From: Candidatus Bathyarchaeota archaeon BA2
GTDB lineage: Archaea > Thermoproteota > Bathyarchaeia > Bathyarchaeales > Bathyarchaeaceae
DNA: 42,670 bases
Assembly (NCBI GenBank): GCA_001399795.1
Contig: LIHK01000021.1
Coordinates: forward strand, 1-42,670
Direction: 5' to 3'
Shown here: positions 9,796-23,558 of the stretch, in pieces
How the letters are laid out: every line of letters begins with the position of its first letter
Position numbering within the stretch: the stretch's first letter is position 1
Notes under the pieces: generated by a model
Databases searched by the model: none
Seen by the model: only the letters and a program-made list of their open reading frames with translations
Told to the model about the DNA's origin: nothing
Made by a program: the position numbers and the translations under genes

Positions 9796-10770
9796 TTACT
9801 CTACCCAGTAGCTGTCGCCTTCACGGTAGATAACGCAAGGATGATTACAGTGGGGACAATTGAAACTTAGTGCTTCTGTGAGAAAGCCCTTTTTCTCTAA
9901 GAGACTTGCTTTCTCTTTTTCTAAAGCTTCAATTCTCTCTCGCAAACTCTTTATGGTCTGCATTGATACTTCTTCGACACCTTCCTCAGCTGCTTCTTCA
10001 AGCTGTCCCGCCATCTTCTCAATCTCTTCGGGCTTTAAGGTTCCCTCACGCATCTCCCCTGCTTTTTCCCTAAGAACCTCAGCAGCCTTCTCAAAGTCTT
10101 CCGGAGTCTCCAATTTAGGAGCTTTAGGTGCAATGGCTGGCAATACTTTTTCTGCTTCTCTGATGCGCATTTCCTTAACTCTTGCTTTCAGCTCCTTCGC
10201 ACGCTTGTTGGCAATTTTTCGCGTTTCAGAAACAGTTAATTTTCTCTTAAGAATTTCATTTACAGTAAGCACCGCTTCTTTGATGTTTCTGTCGATCACA
10301 CTTTCGAGTGCAACTATGTGCGACATACTGATCTGTTTGGCCCACACAGCTTTCTGAATATCTTCAGGAAACCTGAATACGTTAAGATGCGCTGAGACCC
10401 ATCGAGAATCCACATTCAGCTGTCTGCTTATCTCCAACGGCGTCATACCTTCATCTCTAACTTTCTTGAAGTATCTCGCTTCCTCTTCAACTGTGTAGTT
10501 TTCTCGGATCTTGTTAAGCTTGTAAACTGATAGTCTTGCCATTGTGTCGTCTGCATCGACCACTCGGACGAGTACGGTTTTCCATCCAAGTTCCTTAACG
10601 GCTCTCCATCTTCTTTCGCCATCAATTAACTCGTAAAACTCGCCCCGGTTGCGAACCACTAGATCGCTGAGAAGTCCGTCTTTCTTTATTTCCTGCTTTA
10701 GGTCCTCCTGATCGAAGATTAGCCTAGGCTGATACGGGCTTGGCCGGATTGAATCTATATCTATCTCCAT
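9796..10770 (-). CDS. ParB-like nuclease/partition domain protein with coiled coil and C-terminal Cys motif
   Basis: IDSIRPSPYQPRLIFDQEDL...ELIDGERRWRAVKELG...LNKIRENYTVEEEA; C-term CPHCNHPC. Confidence 0.85.
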   Translation of the reverse strand: MEIDIDSIRPSPYQPRLIFDQEDLKQEIKKDGLLSDLVVRNRGEFYELIDGERRWRAVKELGWKTVLVRVVDADDTMARLSVYKLNKIRENYTVEEEARYFKKVRDEGMTPLEISRQLNVDSRWVSAHLNVFRFPEDIQKAVWAKQISMSHIVALESVIDRNIKEAVLTVNEILKRKLTVSETRKIANKRAKELKARVKEMRIREAEKVLPAIAPKAPKLETPEDFEKAAEVLREKAGEMREGTLKPEEIEKMAGQLEEAAEEGVEEVSMQTIKSLRERIEALEKEKASLLEKKGFLTEALSFNCPHCNHPCVIYREGDSYWVE

Positions 10771-11763: not shown

Positions 11764-11795
11764 ACAAAAAAATAAAAAATTGAGAGGTGAAGAAA

Positions 11796-12017
11796 ATGGT
11801 GACACAAAGTCCAGACGTTTCGAGCCTTGCTGAGGTTCTTGACAGAATACTTGACAAGGGAATCGTCGTCGACGCGTGGGCAAGGGCTTCTCTGGTTGGC
11901 ATCGAAATCCTAACAATCGAAGCAAGAGTGGTAGTTGCGTCAGTGGACACCTTCCTGCACTACACTGAAGAGATAACAAAGATAGAGCAAGCGGCAGTCG
12001 GAGTGCCCGCAGCTTAA
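11796..12017 (+). CDS. gvpA: gas vesicle structural protein GvpA
   Basis: [61 protein letters not shown]. Confidence 0.97.
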
Positions 12018-12059: not shown

Positions 12060-12461
12060 ATGTCTGAAGAGGAAGCGGAAGAAGTGGCAGTGGAGCCTGC
12101 ACGAGCAGTGGCTATGCCAGCGAAAAAAGTACCGGCAGCGAAGCCTGTGCGAAGGGCCGCCATGCCAGCGAAAGAAGTGCCAAAAAAAGTGAGCACCGGA
12201 ACCGTTAAAGGCAAAATAGCAGCAATTCAAAAAGCTACCGCCGAGATCTCTGCAGGCGTACGCGCTATCCAGTCGAGCATCAGCGAGCAAATGAAGGAAA
12301 ACCAGAAAGCTGTTGCTGACTTCTCTGCTCGTGTTAATGCTCAGATGAACGAAAATAAAGAAGCAGTTGCTGCCATCTATTCTGGCGCACGAGCTATTCA
12401 GTCAGCGATCTCAGAGCGGATGAAAGAAAACCAGGCATACGTAAGGGATTTCTACGGGTGA
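12060..12461 (+). CDS. GvpC-like helical repeat protein (candidate)
   Basis: Located between gvpA and gvpN; repeats SAGVRAIQSSISEQMKENQKAVADF / SARVNAQMNENKEAVAAI / SGARAIQSAISERMKENQAYVRDF; Ala/Pro/Lys-rich N-terminal linker. Confidence 0.6.
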   Translation: MSEEEAEEVAVEPARAVAMPAKKVPAAKPVRRAAMPAKEVPKKVSTGTVKGKIAAIQKATAEISAGVRAIQSSISEQMKENQKAVADFSARVNAQMNENKEAVAAIYSGARAIQSAISERMKENQAYVRDFYG

Positions 12462-12943: not shown

Positions 12944-13954
12944 ATGAAATATGTACCTACCCACAAGAGAGTGGTGCGAGGAAAGAGAATTCATGAAACA
13001 GTGGAAGAAAGACACTCAAAACTAGAATTGGAAAAAAGAACCCCAGAATTGTCAATCGAACGCGTCGAAGCAGAGTTTCTGGTGCCAACCATTGAAATTT
13101 TTGTCGAGACAGAGCAGGTTAGAAGGCTAAAGGACAGGGTTAAGCTGTGGATTAAAGTTGGATACCCACCGCATATAGTGGGACCAACAGGCTGCGGAAA
13201 AACAACACTAGCCATGCAGGTGGCAAGAGAGTTAGGAAGACCCACGGTGTGGATAAACGGCGACGAACAAATGACAACAACAGACCTGATCGGAGGATAC
13301 TCAGAGATGGAAGCCGAAAGCGTGAGAGACAGATTCGTCCACAACGTCATGCTAGCAAAGGACAGAACAAAATTCACATGGGTGGACAATCCCCTAACGC
13401 TTGCGTGCAAATACGGCTACACGCTGGTCTACAACGAGTTCTCAAGAGCCAAGCCAGAAGCAAACAACGTCCTTCTCTCAGTGCTAGAGGAAAACATCCT
13501 CGAACTCCCAACAATGTTCGGAGACGAAAGATACATCAAAGTCCATCCAGATTTCACCGCGATATTCACAAGCAACTCCATAGAATACGCAGGAGTACAC
13601 AAACCACAAGACGCCCTACTCGACAGAATGGTAGACATCTACATGGACTACTACGACTTCGACACCGAAGTAAAAATCGTTCAGGCACACACCGGCATGC
13701 CACTCCAAGAAGCGAAAAAAGTGGTGAAAGCAGTTAGAATACTCAGAGAAAAACTGCCCGAACCCCATAAACCCGGAACGAGGGCAGAAATAATGATCTG
13801 CCAAGGACTGAACGCAATGGACGGCTATTCGAAGGAAGACCTTGAACAGATATACATGGATATCCTGGCAACAAAAATAGGTGAACCAAAAGAACTCCTG
13901 AAGAAAGGGGGTCTCATAAGAGAAATACTCAGCGAAACTTACGGAGATGCCTGA
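12944..13954 (+). CDS. gvpN: gas vesicle AAA+ ATPase GvpN
   Basis: HIVGPTGCGKTTLAMQVARELGRPTVWINGDEQMTTTDLIGGY...VYNEFSRAKPEANNVLLSVLEE; ORF track start 12932 (GTG), ATG at 12944. Confidence 0.95.
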   Translation: MKYVPTHKRVVRGKRIHETVEERHSKLELEKRTPELSIERVEAEFLVPTIEIFVETEQVRRLKDRVKLWIKVGYPPHIVGPTGCGKTTLAMQVARELGRPTVWINGDEQMTTTDLIGGYSEMEAESVRDRFVHNVMLAKDRTKFTWVDNPLTLACKYGYTLVYNEFSRAKPEANNVLLSVLEENILELPTMFGDERYIKVHPDFTAIFTSNSIEYAGVHKPQDALLDRMVDIYMDYYDFDTEVKIVQAHTGMPLQEAKKVVKAVRILREKLPEPHKPGTRAEIMICQGLNAMDGYSKEDLEQIYMDILATKIGEPKELLKKGGLIREILSETYGDA

Positions 13955-14324
13955 GCTGGAAAAAGTTAGTGCAACAATCCAGGATGCCAAGATCTACAAA
14001 ATCTCGGATCTTTGGAGTAGAAAGCCGAGGGGACTCAGGTTCAACGACACAGACGCCCTTGTTATCACCTTGAGAGCCGAAGATGGAAGCACAATAAAGG
14101 AAACCTTCTATTTCTGCCTCAAACCAGACGGAACCTTCAACGTAAACACCGTGAGCAAAGATAGCAGCCGAGCAAGGCGGCAAAGGCTCGCCAGTTTTCT
14201 CAAACACTATAAAATAACCAGCAACGTAGATGAATACAACCTAAAAGAGGGAATAAAGCGGTGGAAGGGGATACAAGTTGCCGCCATAAAAGTCGGCGAT
14301 TCAGGCTCTATTTATGTTCCATAG
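13947..14324 (+). CDS. conserved-looking gvp-operon protein of unknown family
   Basis: 125-aa ORF overlapping gvpN end and 12 nt before gvpO. Confidence 0.65.
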   Translation: MPELEKVSATIQDAKIYKISDLWSRKPRGLRFNDTDALVITLRAEDGSTIKETFYFCLKPDGTFNVNTVSKDSSRARRQRLASFLKHYKITSNVDEYNLKEGIKRWKGIQVAAIKVGDSGSIYVP

Positions 14325-14987: not shown

Positions 14988-15839
14988 TTGAAAGGTCAAG
15001 AAGAAATGACTGTCCTCAACTCGCAGCCACAGCCTAATGCAAATGTCAAAGGCCTAAACCATACCCTCCACCTGTACACTTCAAAGGTGGACAAACACAC
15101 CATCCAAAAAGCCTTTTTGATTTCTACCCGAAACGATGAAAAGGCAGTTTACGTAACCACAGATGACCCCACACCCCTTATTCAAGAATTCAACTCCACA
15201 AATGTTGAGTTAAAAATCATCAAACCAGAAGAGATCAAATACCTTGAAAGCGAAAAAAACCGTAAACTACGGATCATCATAGACGCTGGATCAATACCTA
15301 GCCAGAAAGACGCCGAAGTTGAAGAAAGAGAAAGCTACCTAAACGAACTAAGCAAAAAACACCCCATAAACTGCCTGTGCACCTACGACGTTACAAAACT
15401 TAACCCTAAAACAATCAAACAACTGGCAATGCACCACAACCAGCTTCGCCTCACAACCAGCGACCTAACCATACTATCTGGGGATCTGCTTGACAGATCC
15501 AAGTTGTCAGACGACTCCATCGAAAAAATGGTGAAAGACAATCTGGAAACCATAATTCTTGCCCTTCTACAAAAGAAACCAATGTGTGGAACCGACATAA
15601 TGGGAACCATACACCTGGAATTCAACGTGTTACTCAGCCCAGGAACAATCTATCCACTACTTCAGTCATTGAAAGAAAAGGGACTGTTAACATCCAAGAA
15701 ACATGGCAAGGCAAAGACATACGCCCCAGCTGAAGACGCGGAACTGAAAATAAGAAGCATGATCAATGAACACATTCAAGCTCGCAAACTCTTGAACCAC
15801 TACCTACAACAAGAAGCAACGATTAGGAAGGTCAGTTAA
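14988..15839 (+). CDS. MEDS-like sensory domain fused to PadR-family HTH regulator
   Basis: N-term HTLHLYTSK...AVYVTTDDP...CLCTYDVTKLNPKTIKQLAMHHNQLRLT (MEDS/DcmR-like); C-term ILALLQKKPMCGTDIMGTIHLEFNVLLSPGTIYPLLQSLKEKGLL (PadR). Confidence 0.75.
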   Translation: MKGQEEMTVLNSQPQPNANVKGLNHTLHLYTSKVDKHTIQKAFLISTRNDEKAVYVTTDDPTPLIQEFNSTNVELKIIKPEEIKYLESEKNRKLRIIIDAGSIPSQKDAEVEERESYLNELSKKHPINCLCTYDVTKLNPKTIKQLAMHHNQLRLTTSDLTILSGDLLDRSKLSDDSIEKMVKDNLETIILALLQKKPMCGTDIMGTIHLEFNVLLSPGTIYPLLQSLKEKGLLTSKKHGKAKTYAPAEDAELKIRSMINEHIQARKLLNHYLQQEATIRKVS

Positions 15840-16917: not shown

Positions 16918-17217
16918 GTGAAACGAATGCCTTTTTTCATAGACGACCTTTTCCTGCGAATGCTTGGCTTCTCTATACCGCCATTTGACATGATCTGGCT
17001 CATTGAAACAATTAGAGATTACGTTGAGAATATAAGACAAGAGGAGATCCAGCAAAAGATTAACAACAAAATAAAGGAGAACAGGCTGCTCTACGAGCTA
17101 GGTGAAATAACAAAGAAGGAATACGAGAGGAGAAACGAAGAACTAAACCACCAACGACAAATGAACAATAGAATAAACAGAACGAACCTCAACCAGAGAA
17201 TAAACATACTGGGCTAG
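16918..17217 (+). CDS. gvpG: GvpG-like protein
   Basis: MPFFIDDLFLRMLGFSIPPFDMIWLIETIRDYVEN...LLYELGEITKKEYERRNEEL. Confidence 0.8.
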   Translation: MKRMPFFIDDLFLRMLGFSIPPFDMIWLIETIRDYVENIRQEEIQQKINNKIKENRLLYELGEITKKEYERRNEELNHQRQMNNRINRTNLNQRINILG

Positions 17218-17238: not shown

Positions 17239-17562
17239 TTGAACCGTAAATGCAAAAAACTGAAACAAACGAAACGCGTAATCAAACCTCGAAAAAGTAA
17301 CATACCAAAGAGACCTCAGTTTTGCAAACATCCTATCCCAAGAAGGAAGAGGATAAAAAGACTTCGTTATACAGCTCCACCCATAGAGGTTGATGCAACC
17401 GGAGAAGTTCTTCTCGGATCGGCTACAGCTGGACCTGCTGGGACTATGATTGGAGTAGGCTCAGCGACAGTACGGACATTTAGCCATATAGGAATTTCGG
17501 TGCTGAAAAAGATTCGAGAAAGAGCTGAAGAAATCAGGGAAGCTGAAAAAGAAAGCACGTAA
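17239..17562 (+). CDS. basic, Gly-rich hypothetical protein in gvp operon
   Basis: TTG start; VLLGSATAGPAGTMIGVGSATVRTFSHIGISVLKKIRE; no family recognised. Confidence 0.5.
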   Translation: MNRKCKKLKQTKRVIKPRKSNIPKRPQFCKHPIPRRKRIKRLRYTAPPIEVDATGEVLLGSATAGPAGTMIGVGSATVRTFSHIGISVLKKIRERAEEIREAEKEST

Positions 17563-17581: not shown

Positions 17582-17908
17582 ATGGTGACATTAAGACCGG
17601 AAGAAACTGGCTTGAAGGAACTCCTAGACAGAGTCCTAGATAAAGGAGTGGCGGTCGATACGAGTGTCAGAGTTGACCTCGGCAGCCTCGATCTCTTAGG
17701 AGCAAAAGCTCACATTATCCTCGCTTCCTTCAAAACGGCTGAAAAGATAGGTTTAGATTTTCCTGAAGGAACCAATCTTAACACGCCAGCATGGCAAAAT
17801 CTGAAAACAACGCAACTGTGTCCAGTTTGCGGCATGGAATCCAGACAAGAAGAACTCAAAGAAGAAGGTTGCCCTTGGTGTGGATGCTACAGACCAGATG
17901 AGAGATAA
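17582..17908 (+). CDS. GvpJ/GvpA-family protein with C-terminal zinc ribbon
   Basis: LKELLDRVLDKGVAVDTSVRVDLGSLDLLGAKAHIILASFKTAEKIGLDFP then CPVCG...CPWCG. Confidence 0.88.
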   Translation: MVTLRPEETGLKELLDRVLDKGVAVDTSVRVDLGSLDLLGAKAHIILASFKTAEKIGLDFPEGTNLNTPAWQNLKTTQLCPVCGMESRQEELKEEGCPWCGCYRPDER

Positions 17909-18293
17909 AACGATGGAAAGCACAACATTAACGCCTGAAAGAACGGAAGACACGGACCTAGCAGGTGCCATAGATAGAATTCTAGACAAAGGATTAGTGA
18001 TCAACGCAGACATCACTGTCGACGTTGCAGGCGTTGAACTACTCGGAATCAAAATAAGAGCTGCCCTAGCGTCCTTTGAAACGGCGGCGAAATACGGGTT
18101 AGAGTTTCCATCTGGAACCAACTTCGAAACAGCGGCTTGGAAAGAAACCATGATAGAAAAAGAGGAATGCCCCCAATGCGGTAAACGAGTTGAGAGGGAG
18201 GAACTGCTAAACTTTGCGTGTCCGTGGTGTGGATGGGAGAGCGCAAAGGCGAAGAAAAGAAAGAAAGCTGGCGTTAAGGTGGAGGTCCAATAG
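17880..18293 (+). CDS. second GvpJ/GvpA-family protein with C-terminal zinc ribbon
   Basis: ATG at 17913 likely; LAGAIDRILDKGLVINADITVDVAGVELLGIKIRAALASFETAAKYGLEFP then CPQCG...CPWCG. Confidence 0.88.
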   Translation: MDATDQMRDKTMESTTLTPERTEDTDLAGAIDRILDKGLVINADITVDVAGVELLGIKIRAALASFETAAKYGLEFPSGTNFETAAWKETMIEKEECPQCGKRVEREELLNFACPWCGWESAKAKKRKKAGVKVEVQ

Positions 18294-18824
18294 TTGAATA
18301 TCTCAGAGAAGGTGAGGAAGGTGAACATACTTGTGAGAACGGTGGATGAGAAAAGCAAGCAGATCATAACATGCCTTTTGAGAGAACGACACGCAGGAAT
18401 CAGAAAGCTCGCGGATCTAATTCGCGCCTCCTCGGATATGGAAGTACTTACCCGGATCAGAGAAGTCATAAATCCAAGAGCACAAAAAATCATAGGAGAA
18501 CCCCTTATCACGTTTGAAAAATCCAAGATCGATCCGTTGACTGGTGAAAAAATCACATTTTCTTGGTGGCTGAAAGAAGAACTGATGGAAGGCTTACATT
18601 ATGAGGGGTTGTTGGATGTCTTCGACGAGGGAGACGGTTTGAGGGTGGTAGCCTGCCTTCCCCCGCAAGAGAGAGATGTCAATGTCGAAGTGAAGGGCGA
18701 TTTTCTCATAATATCCGGAAAGGAGTACCACAGGGAGGTTTCCCTCTTCTATCCCGTTGAAAAGATGGTGAAAAAAACCATCAACAACGGCATTTTAGAA
18801 GTTAAACTGAACAAAATCGGATGA
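18294..18824 (+). CDS. gvpH: GvpH-type Hsp20 protein
   Basis: TTG start; LLDVFDEGDGLRVVACLPPQERDVNVEVKGDFLIISGKEYHREVSL...NNGILEVKLNK. Confidence 0.78.
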   Translation: MNISEKVRKVNILVRTVDEKSKQIITCLLRERHAGIRKLADLIRASSDMEVLTRIREVINPRAQKIIGEPLITFEKSKIDPLTGEKITFSWWLKEELMEGLHYEGLLDVFDEGDGLRVVACLPPQERDVNVEVKGDFLIISGKEYHREVSLFYPVEKMVKKTINNGILEVKLNKIG

Positions 18825-18830
18825 GAAAGC

Positions 18831-19160
18831 ATGCCAATAAAGATCGATGAAGACAACTTGAAGTCCGGACTCCTTGGTCTAGTTGTAGCTCTAGTTGAAA
18901 TCATACAGGATGTGCTTGAGAGAGAAGCGATACGAAGGATGGAGTCTGGGAGACTGAAGGATGAGGAAGTCGACCGGCTGGGAAACGGACTAATGGAACT
19001 CCGTGCGGCACTTGAGCACATAAAAAAGGAGAACCACCTCGAGAAGACGGTTAGATCTCTGCGGACTGATCTTGACAAATTAGTGGAAGAAACCATCGAC
19101 GTTATGGCTAATCCAGAAAGATGGGAACGGGAGATGGAAAAAAATGAGTTCAGACAATAG
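18831..19160 (+). CDS. gvpK: gas vesicle protein GvpK
   Basis: GLLGLVVALVEIIQDVLEREAIRRMESGRLKDEEVDRLGNGLMELRAALEHI. Confidence 0.95.
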   Translation: MPIKIDEDNLKSGLLGLVVALVEIIQDVLEREAIRRMESGRLKDEEVDRLGNGLMELRAALEHIKKENHLEKTVRSLRTDLDKLVEETIDVMANPERWEREMEKNEFRQ

Positions 19161-19944
19161 TCACGCAGAAGGAAGATATCTCTACTGCATAGTCAACAGC
19201 GGCAAAAAAACGAGTTTTGGGCAGATGGGAATCGAAGACAGCCTCGTCTACACTGTGCTTATTAACGATATAGGTGCGGTCGTCCACCGTTGCGAGGCGA
19301 AGCCCTACAAAACGGAGGACAAGGAAAAAGCAGGAGAGTGGATTTTAACACATCAATACGTGATTGATTTGGCTACTAAAGAATTCGGTACAGTAATTCC
19401 CCTAACTTTTGACACCATTTTTAAAGGGGACGATGAAATAGTGAAGCAGTGGCTCCGTGAAGAATATCGCGAACTTAAGACTCTATTAGAAAAGCTTGAC
19501 GGAAAGGCAGAATATGGAGTTCAGATATTCGTCGAGGATGACTTCATTGAAAAGGTGCCGGAAGAAAAAGAAGAGATCCAGAGACTAAGAAAGGAGATAG
19601 AAAACAAACCTAAAGGAGTAGCTTACTTACTTCGGAAGAAATTGGAAAGGAAACTAGAGCTTGAAAGAAAGGCGTTAGCAGATAAACACGCTAAGAATCT
19701 ATACGATCAGATTAAGAGGCTTGTCGACGATGTGAAGCTTGATTCCACAAAAAGAGAAGTGCCCGAAAAATGGAAGGGCAAGCAGATGATCTTGAACCTA
19801 GCCTGCCTTGCGCACAAAGATAACATTCAAAGCTTAGGAAACATGCTGGGAGAGGTCAACAAAAGAGACGGTTTTGCTGTGAGATTCACTGGACCCTGGC
19901 CGCCTTATTCCTTTGTAGGAGAGATCGGAGTCAAAGGGAGATAG
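19144..19944 (+). CDS. GvpF/GvpL family protein
   Basis: GRYLYCIVNSGKKTSFGQMGIEDSLVYTVLINDIGAVVHRCEAK...VRFTGPWPPYSFVGE. Confidence 0.93.
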   Translation: MSSDNSHAEGRYLYCIVNSGKKTSFGQMGIEDSLVYTVLINDIGAVVHRCEAKPYKTEDKEKAGEWILTHQYVIDLATKEFGTVIPLTFDTIFKGDDEIVKQWLREEYRELKTLLEKLDGKAEYGVQIFVEDDFIEKVPEEKEEIQRLRKEIENKPKGVAYLLRKKLERKLELERKALADKHAKNLYDQIKRLVDDVKLDSTKREVPEKWKGKQMILNLACLAHKDNIQSLGNMLGEVNKRDGFAVRFTGPWPPYSFVGEIGVKGR

Positions 19945-19957
19945 AAGGTAAAAATAG

Positions 19958-20989
19958 ATGAAAACTGGAAGATACCTGTACGGAATAATAGAAACGGAGA
20001 AGAGAGAAAGCTTCGGCAACATTGGATTAGGCAACAGCAAGGTGTACACCATCCAACATGAAGATATCGGCGCAGTGGTCAGCGACATCCCATTAGGCTA
20101 CAAGGTCGAAGTAGAAGAAGCCATGACCCACGAGAAGACCTTGCAAAAAATCATGAAGACCCACACAATCATCCCTATGGGTTTCAGGGTCATAGCTAAG
20201 AACGAAGCGGAGATAAAAAACATCCTGAAGCGAGCTCGAATGAAGTTTAAGAACACGCTGGAGAGGATAGACAACAAGCTACAGATCAACGTCAAGATTT
20301 TATGGGACAAAGCCATTTTAGCCAGCATCTTAGGAGAAAACGAAGAAATACGGACATTAGCCGCGGAAGCGACGAAGAAGAAGACCGCTGACCAGTCACT
20401 CAAAATAGAGCTGGGAAGAAAGGTTAAGTCAGTCTTAGACGAAAGAAAAAACGAATACCTGAAGAACGTGCATAGTGTCCTAGAAAATCTGTCAAGTGGG
20501 TTCAAAGAAAACAAAATCACAGATCAAGACACCGTAATGAACGCTTCTTTTTTGGTGGACAAAGAACAAGAACGGAAATTTTACGACAAAACAAATGAAC
20601 TGGAAAAAGAATACGATAAAAAACTTATGTTCCTCGTCGTCGGCCCCTTGCCACCATACAATTTCACTGAGATCGAGATAAAGAAGATGGATTCTAAGAC
20701 CATAGAAGACGCGAGAAAGACTCTGGGGCTAGGCCAAGAGACAAGCATATCCGAAATAAACTCGGCGTACGATCGGCTGGCGCGAAAATACCACCCAGAC
20801 CTTCATCCCAATGATCCCCTTGCAGAAGAGAAGTTCAAGAAGATAAAGAAGGCGCATGACACGTTGACGAAGTACTGCGAGCATTACCTCTGCTCCTTCG
20901 AGAAATCAAAAGTTAAGGAGACCCTTCTAATACAGGAAAAACTGGCTGAAACCGTTTCTAAAAGGGCATTGCAATGGGTCGAACAATAG
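19958..20989 (+). CDS. GvpF/GvpL family protein fused to C-terminal DnaJ (J) domain
   Basis: GRYLYGIIETEKRESFGNIGLGNSKVYTIQHEDIGAVVSD...VVGPLPPYNFTEIE, then ARKTLGLGQETSISEINSAYDRLARKYHPDLHPNDPLAEEKFKKIKKAHDTL with HPD motif. Confidence 0.92.
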   Translation: MKTGRYLYGIIETEKRESFGNIGLGNSKVYTIQHEDIGAVVSDIPLGYKVEVEEAMTHEKTLQKIMKTHTIIPMGFRVIAKNEAEIKNILKRARMKFKNTLERIDNKLQINVKILWDKAILASILGENEEIRTLAAEATKKKTADQSLKIELGRKVKSVLDERKNEYLKNVHSVLENLSSGFKENKITDQDTVMNASFLVDKEQERKFYDKTNELEKEYDKKLMFLVVGPLPPYNFTEIEIKKMDSKTIEDARKTLGLGQETSISEINSAYDRLARKYHPDLHPNDPLAEEKFKKIKKAHDTLTKYCEHYLCSFEKSKVKETLLIQEKLAETVSKRALQWVEQ

Positions 20990-22902
20990 GAATTGATCTC
21001 GGAACCACCAACTCCGCTGGCGCTGTAATGAAATACGGGAAAATAAGGCTTGTTCCAGCATCTGAAGGACCAATCCCCTACGGAAAAATGTTTCCCTCTA
21101 TTGTAGCGTTTAAAGAAGACGGCGAAATAATTGTGGGGAAGAATGCAAAGGACTACGCTTACGTTCATCCGGATAGGACGATAAGATGGATTAAAAGGAA
21201 AATGGGCACAGATTACACCGTAGACATAGACGGTCGCAAATATACTCCTCAAGAAATTTCTGCCCTAATACTAAAGAAGATAAAAAGAGATGCAGAAATC
21301 TACCTTGGAGAGAAGATAGACAAAGCGGTGATCTCGGCGCCAGCGTACTTTAATAACAACCAGAGAAACGCCACAAGAGAGGCAGGAGAAATAGCAGGGC
21401 TTGAAGTCTTAAGGATCGTCAGCGAGCCGACAGCCGCCTCACTTGCCTACGGTTTAGACAAGATCAGAAAAAACCTGAAGATAGCAGTGCTAGACTTGGG
21501 CGCTGGAACCTTCGACGTAACTATCTTGCAGATGAACAACGGCATCTTCAAGGTCATATCCATCAGTGGAGACACCCATCTAGGCGGCAAAGACATGGAC
21601 GATAGAATTCTAAATTATCTTGTCGACAAAATTGAGGAAAAATACGGCATTAACTTAAGAGACGACCAAAAAAATTTGAACAAGCTTAGGGACGCTGGGG
21701 AAATGGCAAAGATCCATCTCTCCAGCAAACTTTCAACAACCATAAAGACACAGCTTAACATAGATGGGTCTAACATCAACCCACACATCGTTCTAACCCG
21801 AGACAAACTAGAGGAGCTCATAAAACCAGAACTCGATAGACTACGAGACCCCTTAGAACAGGCATTGAAAGACGCAGGGCTAGAACCTCAAGACATCGAC
21901 AAACTTGTTTTCGTAGGCGGGCCGACTAGGATGCCAGTTATTAGAAGATACTTCAAAGATTTCTTCTCGGGATTGGAATCTGAAGAAGGCATAGATCCCA
22001 TGGGGATCGTCGCTGTAGGCGCCTCCATTCAAGCTAGTGTTCTGAAAGGTGAGATAAGGGATATGCTTTTGTTGGATGTTACGCCTCTCTCGTTGGGTGT
22101 AGAAACCTCTGGCGGAGTATTTACGAGATTGATCAAGAGAAACACTACTATCCCAACGGAAGAAAGCATGATCTTTGTAACAGAAGAAGAAGACCAGACC
22201 TCGATGATGATCCACGTTCTGCAGGGAGAAAGGGAGATGGCGAAGGACAACATATCCTTGGGTTTGTTCAAGCTAGACGGCATCCCCCCTGCGCCCAGAT
22301 ACGAGCAGGAGGTCGAGGTTACCTTCCAAATCGATGCCGATGGCATACTAAACGTCTCCACCGAGATTCTAGAAACGGGGAAAAAAGAAGCGATCAAGGT
22401 GACGAAGCCCACAGAGCTGTCAGAGGAGGAGATTACAAGAATGATTATCGAGGCAACAAAGTTTGACAAGGTGGACAAAAGGAAGAAGGAAATCGTTGAA
22501 ACTTGTAACCGGGCAGAGGCTGTGATCTATGCAACGGAGAAATCAATAGAAGAGATGTGTAGAAAAATCTCTGAAGGAGAAAAAAGGAAACTTGAAGAAA
22601 CCTTGGGGAAACTGAAGACAGCGTTGAATGGCGACAACACCCAGAAAATCCAAGGGTACACTGATGAGCTGTTGGAGCTGGTGAAAGGAGCGAACATGAA
22701 GGTGAAGAAGATAAGTCAAGCGAAGAGACTGGTGTCCTCAGTGGAGAAGAGGCTGAGGGGTAAGGTTTCCAGAGAAGAGAGAAGGAAGGTTGAGGAAGCG
22801 GTTAAAAGGCTTGAGGGGACACCTTACAAAGACGTGGGAAAAGAGATGAATAAGCTTAAGGAAATGATAATCCTACTAGAGGCAGACTATGGGGAAAGAT
22901 AG
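20974..22902 (+). CDS. dnaK: Hsp70 chaperone DnaK
   Basis: GIDLGTTNSAGAVM...SEPTAASLAYGLDK...VLDLGAGTFDVTIL...VFVGGPTRMPVIR; substrate domain DVTPLSLGVETSGGVF; overlaps preceding stop by 16 nt. Confidence 0.97.
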   Translation: MGRTIGIDLGTTNSAGAVMKYGKIRLVPASEGPIPYGKMFPSIVAFKEDGEIIVGKNAKDYAYVHPDRTIRWIKRKMGTDYTVDIDGRKYTPQEISALILKKIKRDAEIYLGEKIDKAVISAPAYFNNNQRNATREAGEIAGLEVLRIVSEPTAASLAYGLDKIRKNLKIAVLDLGAGTFDVTILQMNNGIFKVISISGDTHLGGKDMDDRILNYLVDKIEEKYGINLRDDQKNLNKLRDAGEMAKIHLSSKLSTTIKTQLNIDGSNINPHIVLTRDKLEELIKPELDRLRDPLEQALKDAGLEPQDIDKLVFVGGPTRMPVIRRYFKDFFSGLESEEGIDPMGIVAVGASIQASVLKGEIRDMLLLDVTPLSLGVETSGGVFTRLIKRNTTIPTEESMIFVTEEEDQTSMMIHVLQGEREMAKDNISLGLFKLDGIPPAPRYEQEVEVTFQIDADGILNVSTEILETGKKEAIKVTKPTELSEEEITRMIIEATKFDKVDKRKKEIVETCNRAEAVIYATEKSIEEMCRKISEGEKRKLEETLGKLKTALNGDNTQKIQGYTDELLELVKGANMKVKKISQAKRLVSSVEKRLRGKVSREERRKVEEAVKRLEGTPYKDVGKEMNKLKEMIILLEADYGER

Positions 22903-22904
22903 AG

Positions 22905-23558
22905 TTGGAACCCACGAGAAACAGTGCACTCGTAGACCTTATTGACAGAATACTGGTCAAAGGAGTCATCCTCCAAGCAGATCTCGTCATCTCGGTTTCT
23001 GAAGTGCCCTTGATCGGAGTCAACTTGAAAGCCGCAATCGCCGGTATGACAACCATGCTAGATTACGGGATGATGGAACCGTGGGACGAAAAAATCAGGA
23101 GGTACGCCCTAGAACACAGCGACGAAGAAGAATTGCCGTTGGATAATAACGAAAAAATCGTCCTCAAGACATTTGGTTCGCACTATTATCGCGATACGTC
23201 TCTTCCCGGCGTCTGGAGACAGGGGTATCTTTATCTCACAAACAAAAGACTTTTCTTGTTCCGGAAAAAACCAGCTAAAATCTTGTTTGAGGTGCCTCTG
23301 GAAAAAATTAGAGGTCTAACTATCGAAAGAAAGAAGTATCTAAAGGAGAAAGAGGAAACCCTTCTTCTTTTAATTGAAAATGAGCGAACAGACAGTGATG
23401 TAGCGGTGCTTCACACTCTAGAAATAAGAGAGCTAAAAAGAAGGATTGAAGAAAGAATAGAAAAAATTCATAGAACCGTGAAGGTCTTACCTTCCACCTA
23501 TTTAGGATCTCAGCATAAGCTAAGGAGAAAATCCTCCACGGGCTTTTACAAAATGTGA
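22905..23558 (+). CDS. GvpA/GvpJ/GvpM-family domain fused to PH/GRAM-like domain
   Basis: LVDLIDRILVKGVILQADLVISVSEVPLIGVNLKAAIAGMTTMLDYG then GYLYLTNKRLFLFRKKPAKILFEVPLEKIRGLTIERKKYLKEKEETLLLLIEN; TTG start. Confidence 0.8.
   Translation: MEPTRNSALVDLIDRILVKGVILQADLVISVSEVPLIGVNLKAAIAGMTTMLDYGMMEPWDEKIRRYALEHSDEEELPLDNNEKIVLKTFGSHYYRDTSLPGVWRQGYLYLTNKRLFLFRKKPAKILFEVPLEKIRGLTIERKKYLKEKEETLLLLIENERTDSDVAVLHTLEIRELKRRIEERIEKIHRTVKVLPSTYLGSQHKLRRKSSTGFYKM

Follow-up and report, generated by a model that had tools for sequence, protein, structure and literature searches.

The protein that we take to be the GvpJ of a gas-vesicle cluster in Candidatus Bathyarchaeota archaeon BA2 ends in a four-cysteine ribbon and, as far as sequence comparison can tell, such a tail is the usual form of GvpJ proteins of this type, old and near-invariant, in archaea as well as in bacteria. 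We put at about even the chance of a reading in which this protein (J2) is the GvpJ of its cluster, a neighbouring gene (J1) encodes a divergent second copy, and the ribbon serves protein-protein docking within the early assembly (seeding) complex formed by GvpJ, GvpK, GvpL and GvpM. We find ribbon-tailed GvpJ to be common in databases under the plain name 'gas vesicle protein', yet apparently undescribed.

Two tandem genes in a complete gas-vesicle cluster

The window, by which we mean the whole 42,670-nucleotide stretch of DNA analysed, is one entire contig of a 1.46 Mb genome and holds a complete gvp cluster. Because another genome from this order (G146) repeats the cluster gene for gene, misassembly is unlikely. 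The preliminary description had placed two tandem GvpA-family reading frames at 17,582 to 18,293, and both are indeed present, open and above the PF00741 gathering cut-off of 25 bits (J1 35.1 bits, J2 53.8 bits). J1 (17582..17908, plus strand, 108 aa; PF00741 E 1.5e-8) consists of a GvpA-type domain (17612..17725, plus strand; PF00741 E 7.9e-9) and a C-terminal ribbon, CPVCG-x13-CPWCG (17819..17884, plus strand; E 4.3e-5 against a J-ribbon profile in a whole-genome search). J2 (17913..18293, plus strand, 126 aa; PF00741 E 2.2e-14) has the same plan, with a GvpA-type domain (17958..18071, plus strand; PF00741 E 9.4e-15) and the C-terminal ribbon CPQCG-x13-CPWCGWxSA (18162..18248, plus strand; J-ribbon profile E 2.2e-17, the J2 sequence itself being a row of that profile). 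The CPVCG...CPWCG and CPQCG...CPWCG tails are thus as first described, with 13 residues between the cysteine pairs.

The J2 frame runs from an ATG at 17,913 to a TAG at 18,293. The GTG at 17,880, which the reading-frame program called as its start, is probably not the true one, since the N-terminus MESTTL.. encoded from 17,913 recurs in the same-order relative. Only 4 nt separate the J1 stop from the J2 start and the gene at 18,294 begins directly after J2, so that all three look co-transcribed.

GvpJ is the best NCBIfam match of J2 (GvpJ 96.4, GvpM 51.3, GvpA 46.8 bits), which lies in the J clade of a tree built from the domain. Its score is below the 125-bit cut-off of the GvpJ model, NF046090, a haloarchaeal model whose cut-off is missed as well by the ribbon-tailed GvpJ of Natrinema (93.5) and by that of Streptomyces (103.9). 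J2 has conservative variants, RAALA and KYGL, of the GvpJ motifs RAAIA and EYGL, and its gene adjoins those for GvpK (18831) and GvpL (19144), as is expected of a GvpJ. For J1, too, GvpJ is the nearest of the NCBIfam GvpA, GvpJ and GvpM models (53 bits, again under the 125-bit mark). At the same positions, however, it reads HIILA and KIGL, and because the RAAIA and EYGL motifs are missing we file it as a GvpJ-like paralog and not as GvpJ, so that the kinship originally proposed for both proteins stands in full for J2 and in this looser sense for J1. On in-house HMMs J1 scores 124.7 bits as J1-type against 71.0 as J2-type, J1 itself being in the J1 training set. The J1-type proteins form one group in the domain tree (support 0.996), comprising three Bathyarchaeia-type loci, locus L044 on a contig binned as Thermoplasmatales, and two loci from Nanoarchaeota (L052 and L113). 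Since this group spans these lineages and a similar J1-J2-like tandem is found in Woesearchaeota (L112), the tandem appears to be an older paired arrangement. The J1-J2 pair at L044 is Bathyarchaeia-like, and its contig (coverage 0.19) comes from the same sample series as L042; its assignment is possibly a binning error.

Upstream of the pair, the cluster encodes the GvpA shell protein, which has no cysteine tail (11787..12017, plus strand; PF00741 E 4.8e-15, above the NCBIfam GvpA cut-off), a reading frame at 12060 that is GvpC-like by look, without Pfam support, GvpN (12932), an ORF without Pfam match that Methanothrix and Nanoarchaeota also have next to GvpN and GvpO (13947-14324), GvpO (14337), a regulator with a MEDS-like sensory region and a PadR-like winged helix, itself inside the gvp cluster (14988-15839), GvpF (15841), GvpG (16918..17217, plus strand; PF05120 E 5.6e-8) and a further ORF without Pfam match (17239-17562). 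J2 is followed by a GvpH-like protein (18294..18824, plus strand) with an Hsp20-like C-domain (NF041800 Hsp20, E 1.4e-11) and an N-domain that has no Pfam match but is common to haloarchaeal and bacterial ribbon-J clusters, near J in many of them; in some ribbon-J clusters this N-terminal domain is joined to a PH/GRAM-like region. Beyond it lie GvpK (18831..19160, plus strand; PF05121 E 3.4e-22), the sole copy in the genome, a GvpF/L family protein in the GvpL position (19144..19944, plus strand; PF06386 E 1.2e-69), a GvpF/L-DnaJ fusion (19958..20989, plus strand; PF06386 E 1e-57, PF00226 E 4.3e-15), the Hsp70 protein DnaK (20974..22902, plus strand; PF00012 E 6.1e-184) and GvpM (22905..23558, plus strand; PF00741 E 3.1e-11, NCBIfam GvpM 96 bits). 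GvpM has a C-terminal PH/GRAM-like domain (weak Vps36 PH and GRAM matches) and no ribbon; the GvpM of Streptomyces also has an extension related to the PH/GRAM-like one. A ParB-like protein is encoded upstream of the gvp cluster on the minus strand (9796-10770), and Rfam gave no match within the window. A phage origin was rejected, there being no match in phage records.

Conservation and distribution of the ribbon tail

In all 95 distinct J2 orthologs the cysteine pairs are 13 residues apart, under a search pattern that fixed the ribbon cysteines but allowed a spacing of 8-30, and 387 of the 400 cysteines in these 11,957 residues lie within the ribbon. Given this uniform spacing and the confinement of cysteines to the ribbon, the J2 ribbon is not a matter of chance. 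Its consensus is E-x-CPQCGKRVxxEELLxxGCPWCGWxSAK, in which P, L, G and W hold their places with few exceptions or none; the conserved residues of J2 include L98, W105 and W108. Column entropy rises from 0.39 bits in the GvpA-type domain to 1.00 in the ribbon, 1.49 in the linker and 2.96 at the end.

AlphaFold2 predicts the J2 ribbon with pLDDT of about 88-91 and is unsure of the hydrophobic shell segment, which may befit a subunit that acquires its fold during assembly. For J1 the model is alpha-beta-beta-alpha plus ribbon (pLDDT about 75-82), and the top fold matches of J1 are, weakly, the gas-vesicle shell structures 7r1c and 8gbs, which the GvpA-type part also matches by sequence (8gbs 1.5e-14, 7r1c 8.3e-13). 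Ribbon hairpins are predicted at E83-85/E92-94 in J2 and at E77-79/E86-88 in J1, with the two CxxC knuckles, constant in their spacing, sitting in a compact beta-hairpin domain. The four-cysteine ribbon is probably zinc-binding. The proposed search for a GvpA family plus a zinc ribbon delivered its first half, PF00741 being above cut-off; the curated zinc-ribbon families of Pfam and NCBIfam gave sub-threshold matches only, and Foldseek found no significant match with the J2 model.

A tblastn search of plasmids returned relatives of J2 with the ribbon tail in Natrinema, Natronococcus and Streptomyces. Those of Natrinema zhouii, Natronococcus occultus and Streptomyces sp. SGAir0924, each a plasmid-borne 'gas vesicle protein', have the J2 architecture at 60-63% identity and the ribbon CPxC-x13-CPWCGWxSA as in J2; unlike J2, they sit in short clusters with no neighbouring GvpA and no J1 paralog. 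That GvpA-less clusters might be a separate, non-vesicle system was considered and dropped, because several such genomes hold further PF00741 proteins elsewhere; for the drafts G601 and G607, which show just two PF00741 proteins each, it may still apply. A scan of one genome per species found 286 relatives, the best 80 of which come, in archaea, from Bathyarchaeia, Methanothrix, Methanophagales and Nanoarchaeota, in bacteria, from Chloroflexota, Desulfobacteraceae, Actinomycetota, Bacillota, Atribacteria, Synergistota and Planctomycetota, and from further groups. This species-wide scan rules out an oddity of Bathyarchaeia.

The scan is biased, since the ribbon was one of its two search patterns. 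Therefore, we selected genomes in three phyla by PF00741 only, in samples centred on Methanothrix (249 genomes), Streptomyces (218) and Desulfoluna (218), and took as GvpJ of J2 type any protein scoring at least 90 bits against a J-domain model built without the tail. Such proteins carried either a ribbon (21, a few of them from genomes already in the biased scan) or a cysteine-free tail (16, mostly acidic and of varied length, in sequences that look haloarchaeal), the sole exceptions being the short, early-ending reading frames L132 and L225. Haloarchaeal GvpJ is the kind that has been studied best. All 21 full-length non-haloarchaeal GvpJ of J2 type in these samples thus have the ribbon, and the rarity of such tails implied by the preliminary description proved wrong. 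These tail-independent searches also counter the objection that ribbon conservation is an artefact of the CPWCGW pattern, and the ribbons that they yielded include some without the pattern's W, such as CPICGW. The coiled-coil GvpJ of bacteria is a third kind (47-58 bits to the J model). It is likewise a minor GvpA paralog with a GvpA-like domain but, unlike J2, it has a LADILERVLDKGIVIAGDI.. core, a coiled-coil-like tail and no ribbon. Since vesicles form without it in haloarchaea and in bacteria that have the coiled-coil GvpJ, the ribbon is not universally required.

Whether such tails are common and already documented had been raised at the outset. They are common, but no description of a ribbon on GvpJ or GvpM was found in the literature searched, which leaves out most subscription papers, so that an earlier mention may exist. 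Remarks on zinc in two gas-vesicle papers that name GvpJ concern the zinc finger of GvpC. In H. salinarum this protein, like J2, has its zinc-finger motif in the C-terminal part, and a C-terminal fragment interacts with GvpC (PMC9372576). Unlike J2, GvpC is an outer stiffening protein and no GvpA paralog, and its motif is a CxxC followed by a His pair; as the motifs differ, we rejected an equation of the two.

The same ribbon on other gas-vesicle proteins

A profile of the J ribbon only, run over the 20,334 reading frames of the fetched loci, matched 32 GvpM proteins above 20 bits, the J1-type proteins and 26 other reading frames; no GvpA with a ribbon was found among them. On GvpM (NF046091; for example L092 and L045) the homologous ribbon, again with spacing 13, is at the extreme C-terminus, and these proteins differ from J2 in having a GvpM-type core with a PH/GRAM-like region between core and ribbon. 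Relatives of GvpM with the PH/GRAM-like domain and the ribbon occur in many phyla.

Most of the 26 other reading frames are small double-ribbon proteins encoded close to J or M, as in the gvp clusters at L049:2780-3214, L051:1282-1794, L054:10663-11079 and L065:8874-9308; the window has none. Apart from one marginal match to Cys_rich_CPCC, those tested matched no Pfam family above cut-off. In a single case, L156:2842-3333, the ribbon is in the N-terminal half of a GvpH/Hsp20-like protein. Across 12 whole genomes, J-ribbon matches below 1e-4 lie in gvp clusters, the first candidates outside having 1.2e-4 and weaker values, and in the window's own genome J1 and J2 are the only good matches.

A proposed docking role in assembly and its alternatives

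In H. salinarum, GvpJ is a minor component that is essential for vesicles (PMC8716928, PMC9501494). Every C-terminal deletion tested, even one of five residues, prevents vesicles, and the C-terminal half of the protein, J47-114, binds GvpG, GvpH and GvpL (PMC8716928), which makes a docking role for the tail plausible. This GvpJ (NF046090) shares with J2 the GvpA-like domain, the RAA(I/L)A and YGL motifs and the GvpK and GvpL neighbours, and it also has a C-terminal extension past the GvpA-like part; its tail is hydrophilic and cysteine-free, the whole protein lacking cysteine (PMC8716928), whereas J2 and J1 carry the four-cysteine ribbon. The GvpJ tail has so far been judged cluster-specific (PMC8716928, PMC9501494). 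Seeding is the least understood step of gas-vesicle assembly (PMC11445434), and in B. megaterium A2 no longer contacts L once S (the M homolog), K or J has been deleted (PMC11445434). Among the ribbon-J loci, 61 extend for at least 5 kb downstream, and at these we found GvpK and GvpF/L without exception and GvpM at all but one (60/61), and minimal clusters in Streptomyces and Natrinema contain little beyond the ribbon-tailed J, M, K and L. This constant set of J, K, L and M is that of the B. megaterium seeding step and, with the tail data from H. salinarum, leads us to read the ribbon as a docking module of these proteins. The docking domain suggested in the preliminary description thereby gains indirect support, through conservation across domains of life, the ribbon on other Gvp proteins, its absence from GvpA and linkage to K, F/L and M; the further suggestions made there, that the ribbon might mark the vesicle nucleus or tip or bind a chaperone, are conjectural.

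The hydrophobic GvpA-like segment of J1 and J2 could become part of the shell in its first turns, with the C-terminal ribbon predicted to face the cytosol. Assembly factors would then recognise the minor paralogs by their ribbon, but not the bulk shell protein GvpA, and growth would thereby start from a defined seed of J and M. Within the cluster, GvpG, the GvpH-like protein, GvpK and the protein in the GvpL position are candidate partners, and the likeliest contact would be with GvpH, GvpK or another ribbon. Some observations speak against docking: the last 30 residues of H. salinarum GvpJ are dispensable for the contact between J and L (PMC8716928), albeit in a different, cysteine-free tail, and the window's own GvpM, unlike those of L092 and L045, has no ribbon. 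If most GvpJ of J2 type carry a conserved ribbon shared with GvpM, the question of the tail becomes one of a defined, mutable module, whose short list of partners would make seeding testable and which could help to explain or repair clusters that fail in heterologous hosts for acoustic reporters. The cluster of Desulfobacterium vacuolatum does make vesicles in E. coli (PMC10344784).

Another way to view the ribbon, tentative but well within the possible, is as a gvp-specific address tag. One homologous metal knuckle on GvpJ, GvpM, GvpH and the double-ribbon protein would build the vesicle nucleus through contacts of ribbons with one another or with a hub. The exception would be the model haloarchaea, which would have lost it.

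Taken by itself, conservation of the ribbon is also compatible with a purely structural cap, a compact metal-bound end that serves folding or solubility. Such a cap would need no specific partner; it would stop the hydrophobic GvpA-like segment from aggregating before it is assembled, and the acidic tail would be its haloarchaeal equivalent. The replacement of the ribbon in haloarchaeal orthologs by acidic, cysteine-free tails of varied length is what a cap predicts. However, we consider it unlikely, given that residues other than cysteine (L, GW, SA, K) hardly vary, beyond a cap's needs, and that the ribbon, almost specific to gvp clusters, recurs on GvpM, the double-ribbon protein and one GvpH/Hsp20 protein.

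The ribbon might instead recruit the Hsp70 machinery of the cluster, so that GvpJ is loaded by a dedicated chaperone. Fusions of DnaJ with GvpF/L, and DnaK as well, belong to many ribbon-J clusters, that of the window among them, and the ribbon on M co-occurs with DnaK (Fisher p 0.0013, kinship ignored). Recruitment is nonetheless improbable: DnaK is present at 23/61 and a DnaJ domain at 17/61 ribbon-J loci, a count inconsistent with DnaK as the general partner of the ribbon, and neither was found beside ribbon-J in the loci of Streptomyces, Methanothrix or haloarchaea. With GvpG at 13/61 (by one query sequence), all three are optional or less detectable at these loci. The fusion together with the cluster DnaK recurs as a pair in many bacterial ribbon-J clusters.

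We think it very unlikely that the ribbon is an iron site like that of rubredoxin-like domains, with its four cysteines as ligands, and gates vesicle formation by sensing redox state or oxygen. In NCBIfam a rubrerythrin-like domain matches weakly, below cut-off at E 2.9e-4, which points that way, and many ribbon carriers belong to anaerobic lineages; against this, Streptomyces and haloarchaea among the carriers are aerobes, the other weak matches are to zinc ribbons (eL43, HVO_2753, AccD-type carboxyltransferase), and a sensor would not account for a ribbon shared by several components of an assembly complex. Binding of nucleic acid, tethering nascent vesicles to gvp mRNA or the nucleoid, is the least credible role despite weak similarity to ribosomal and nucleic-acid-binding ribbons, as no linkage to nucleic-acid genes was found and the consensus, ECPQCGKR..EEL..GCPWCGW, is not basic, the basic residues gathering in the variable end.
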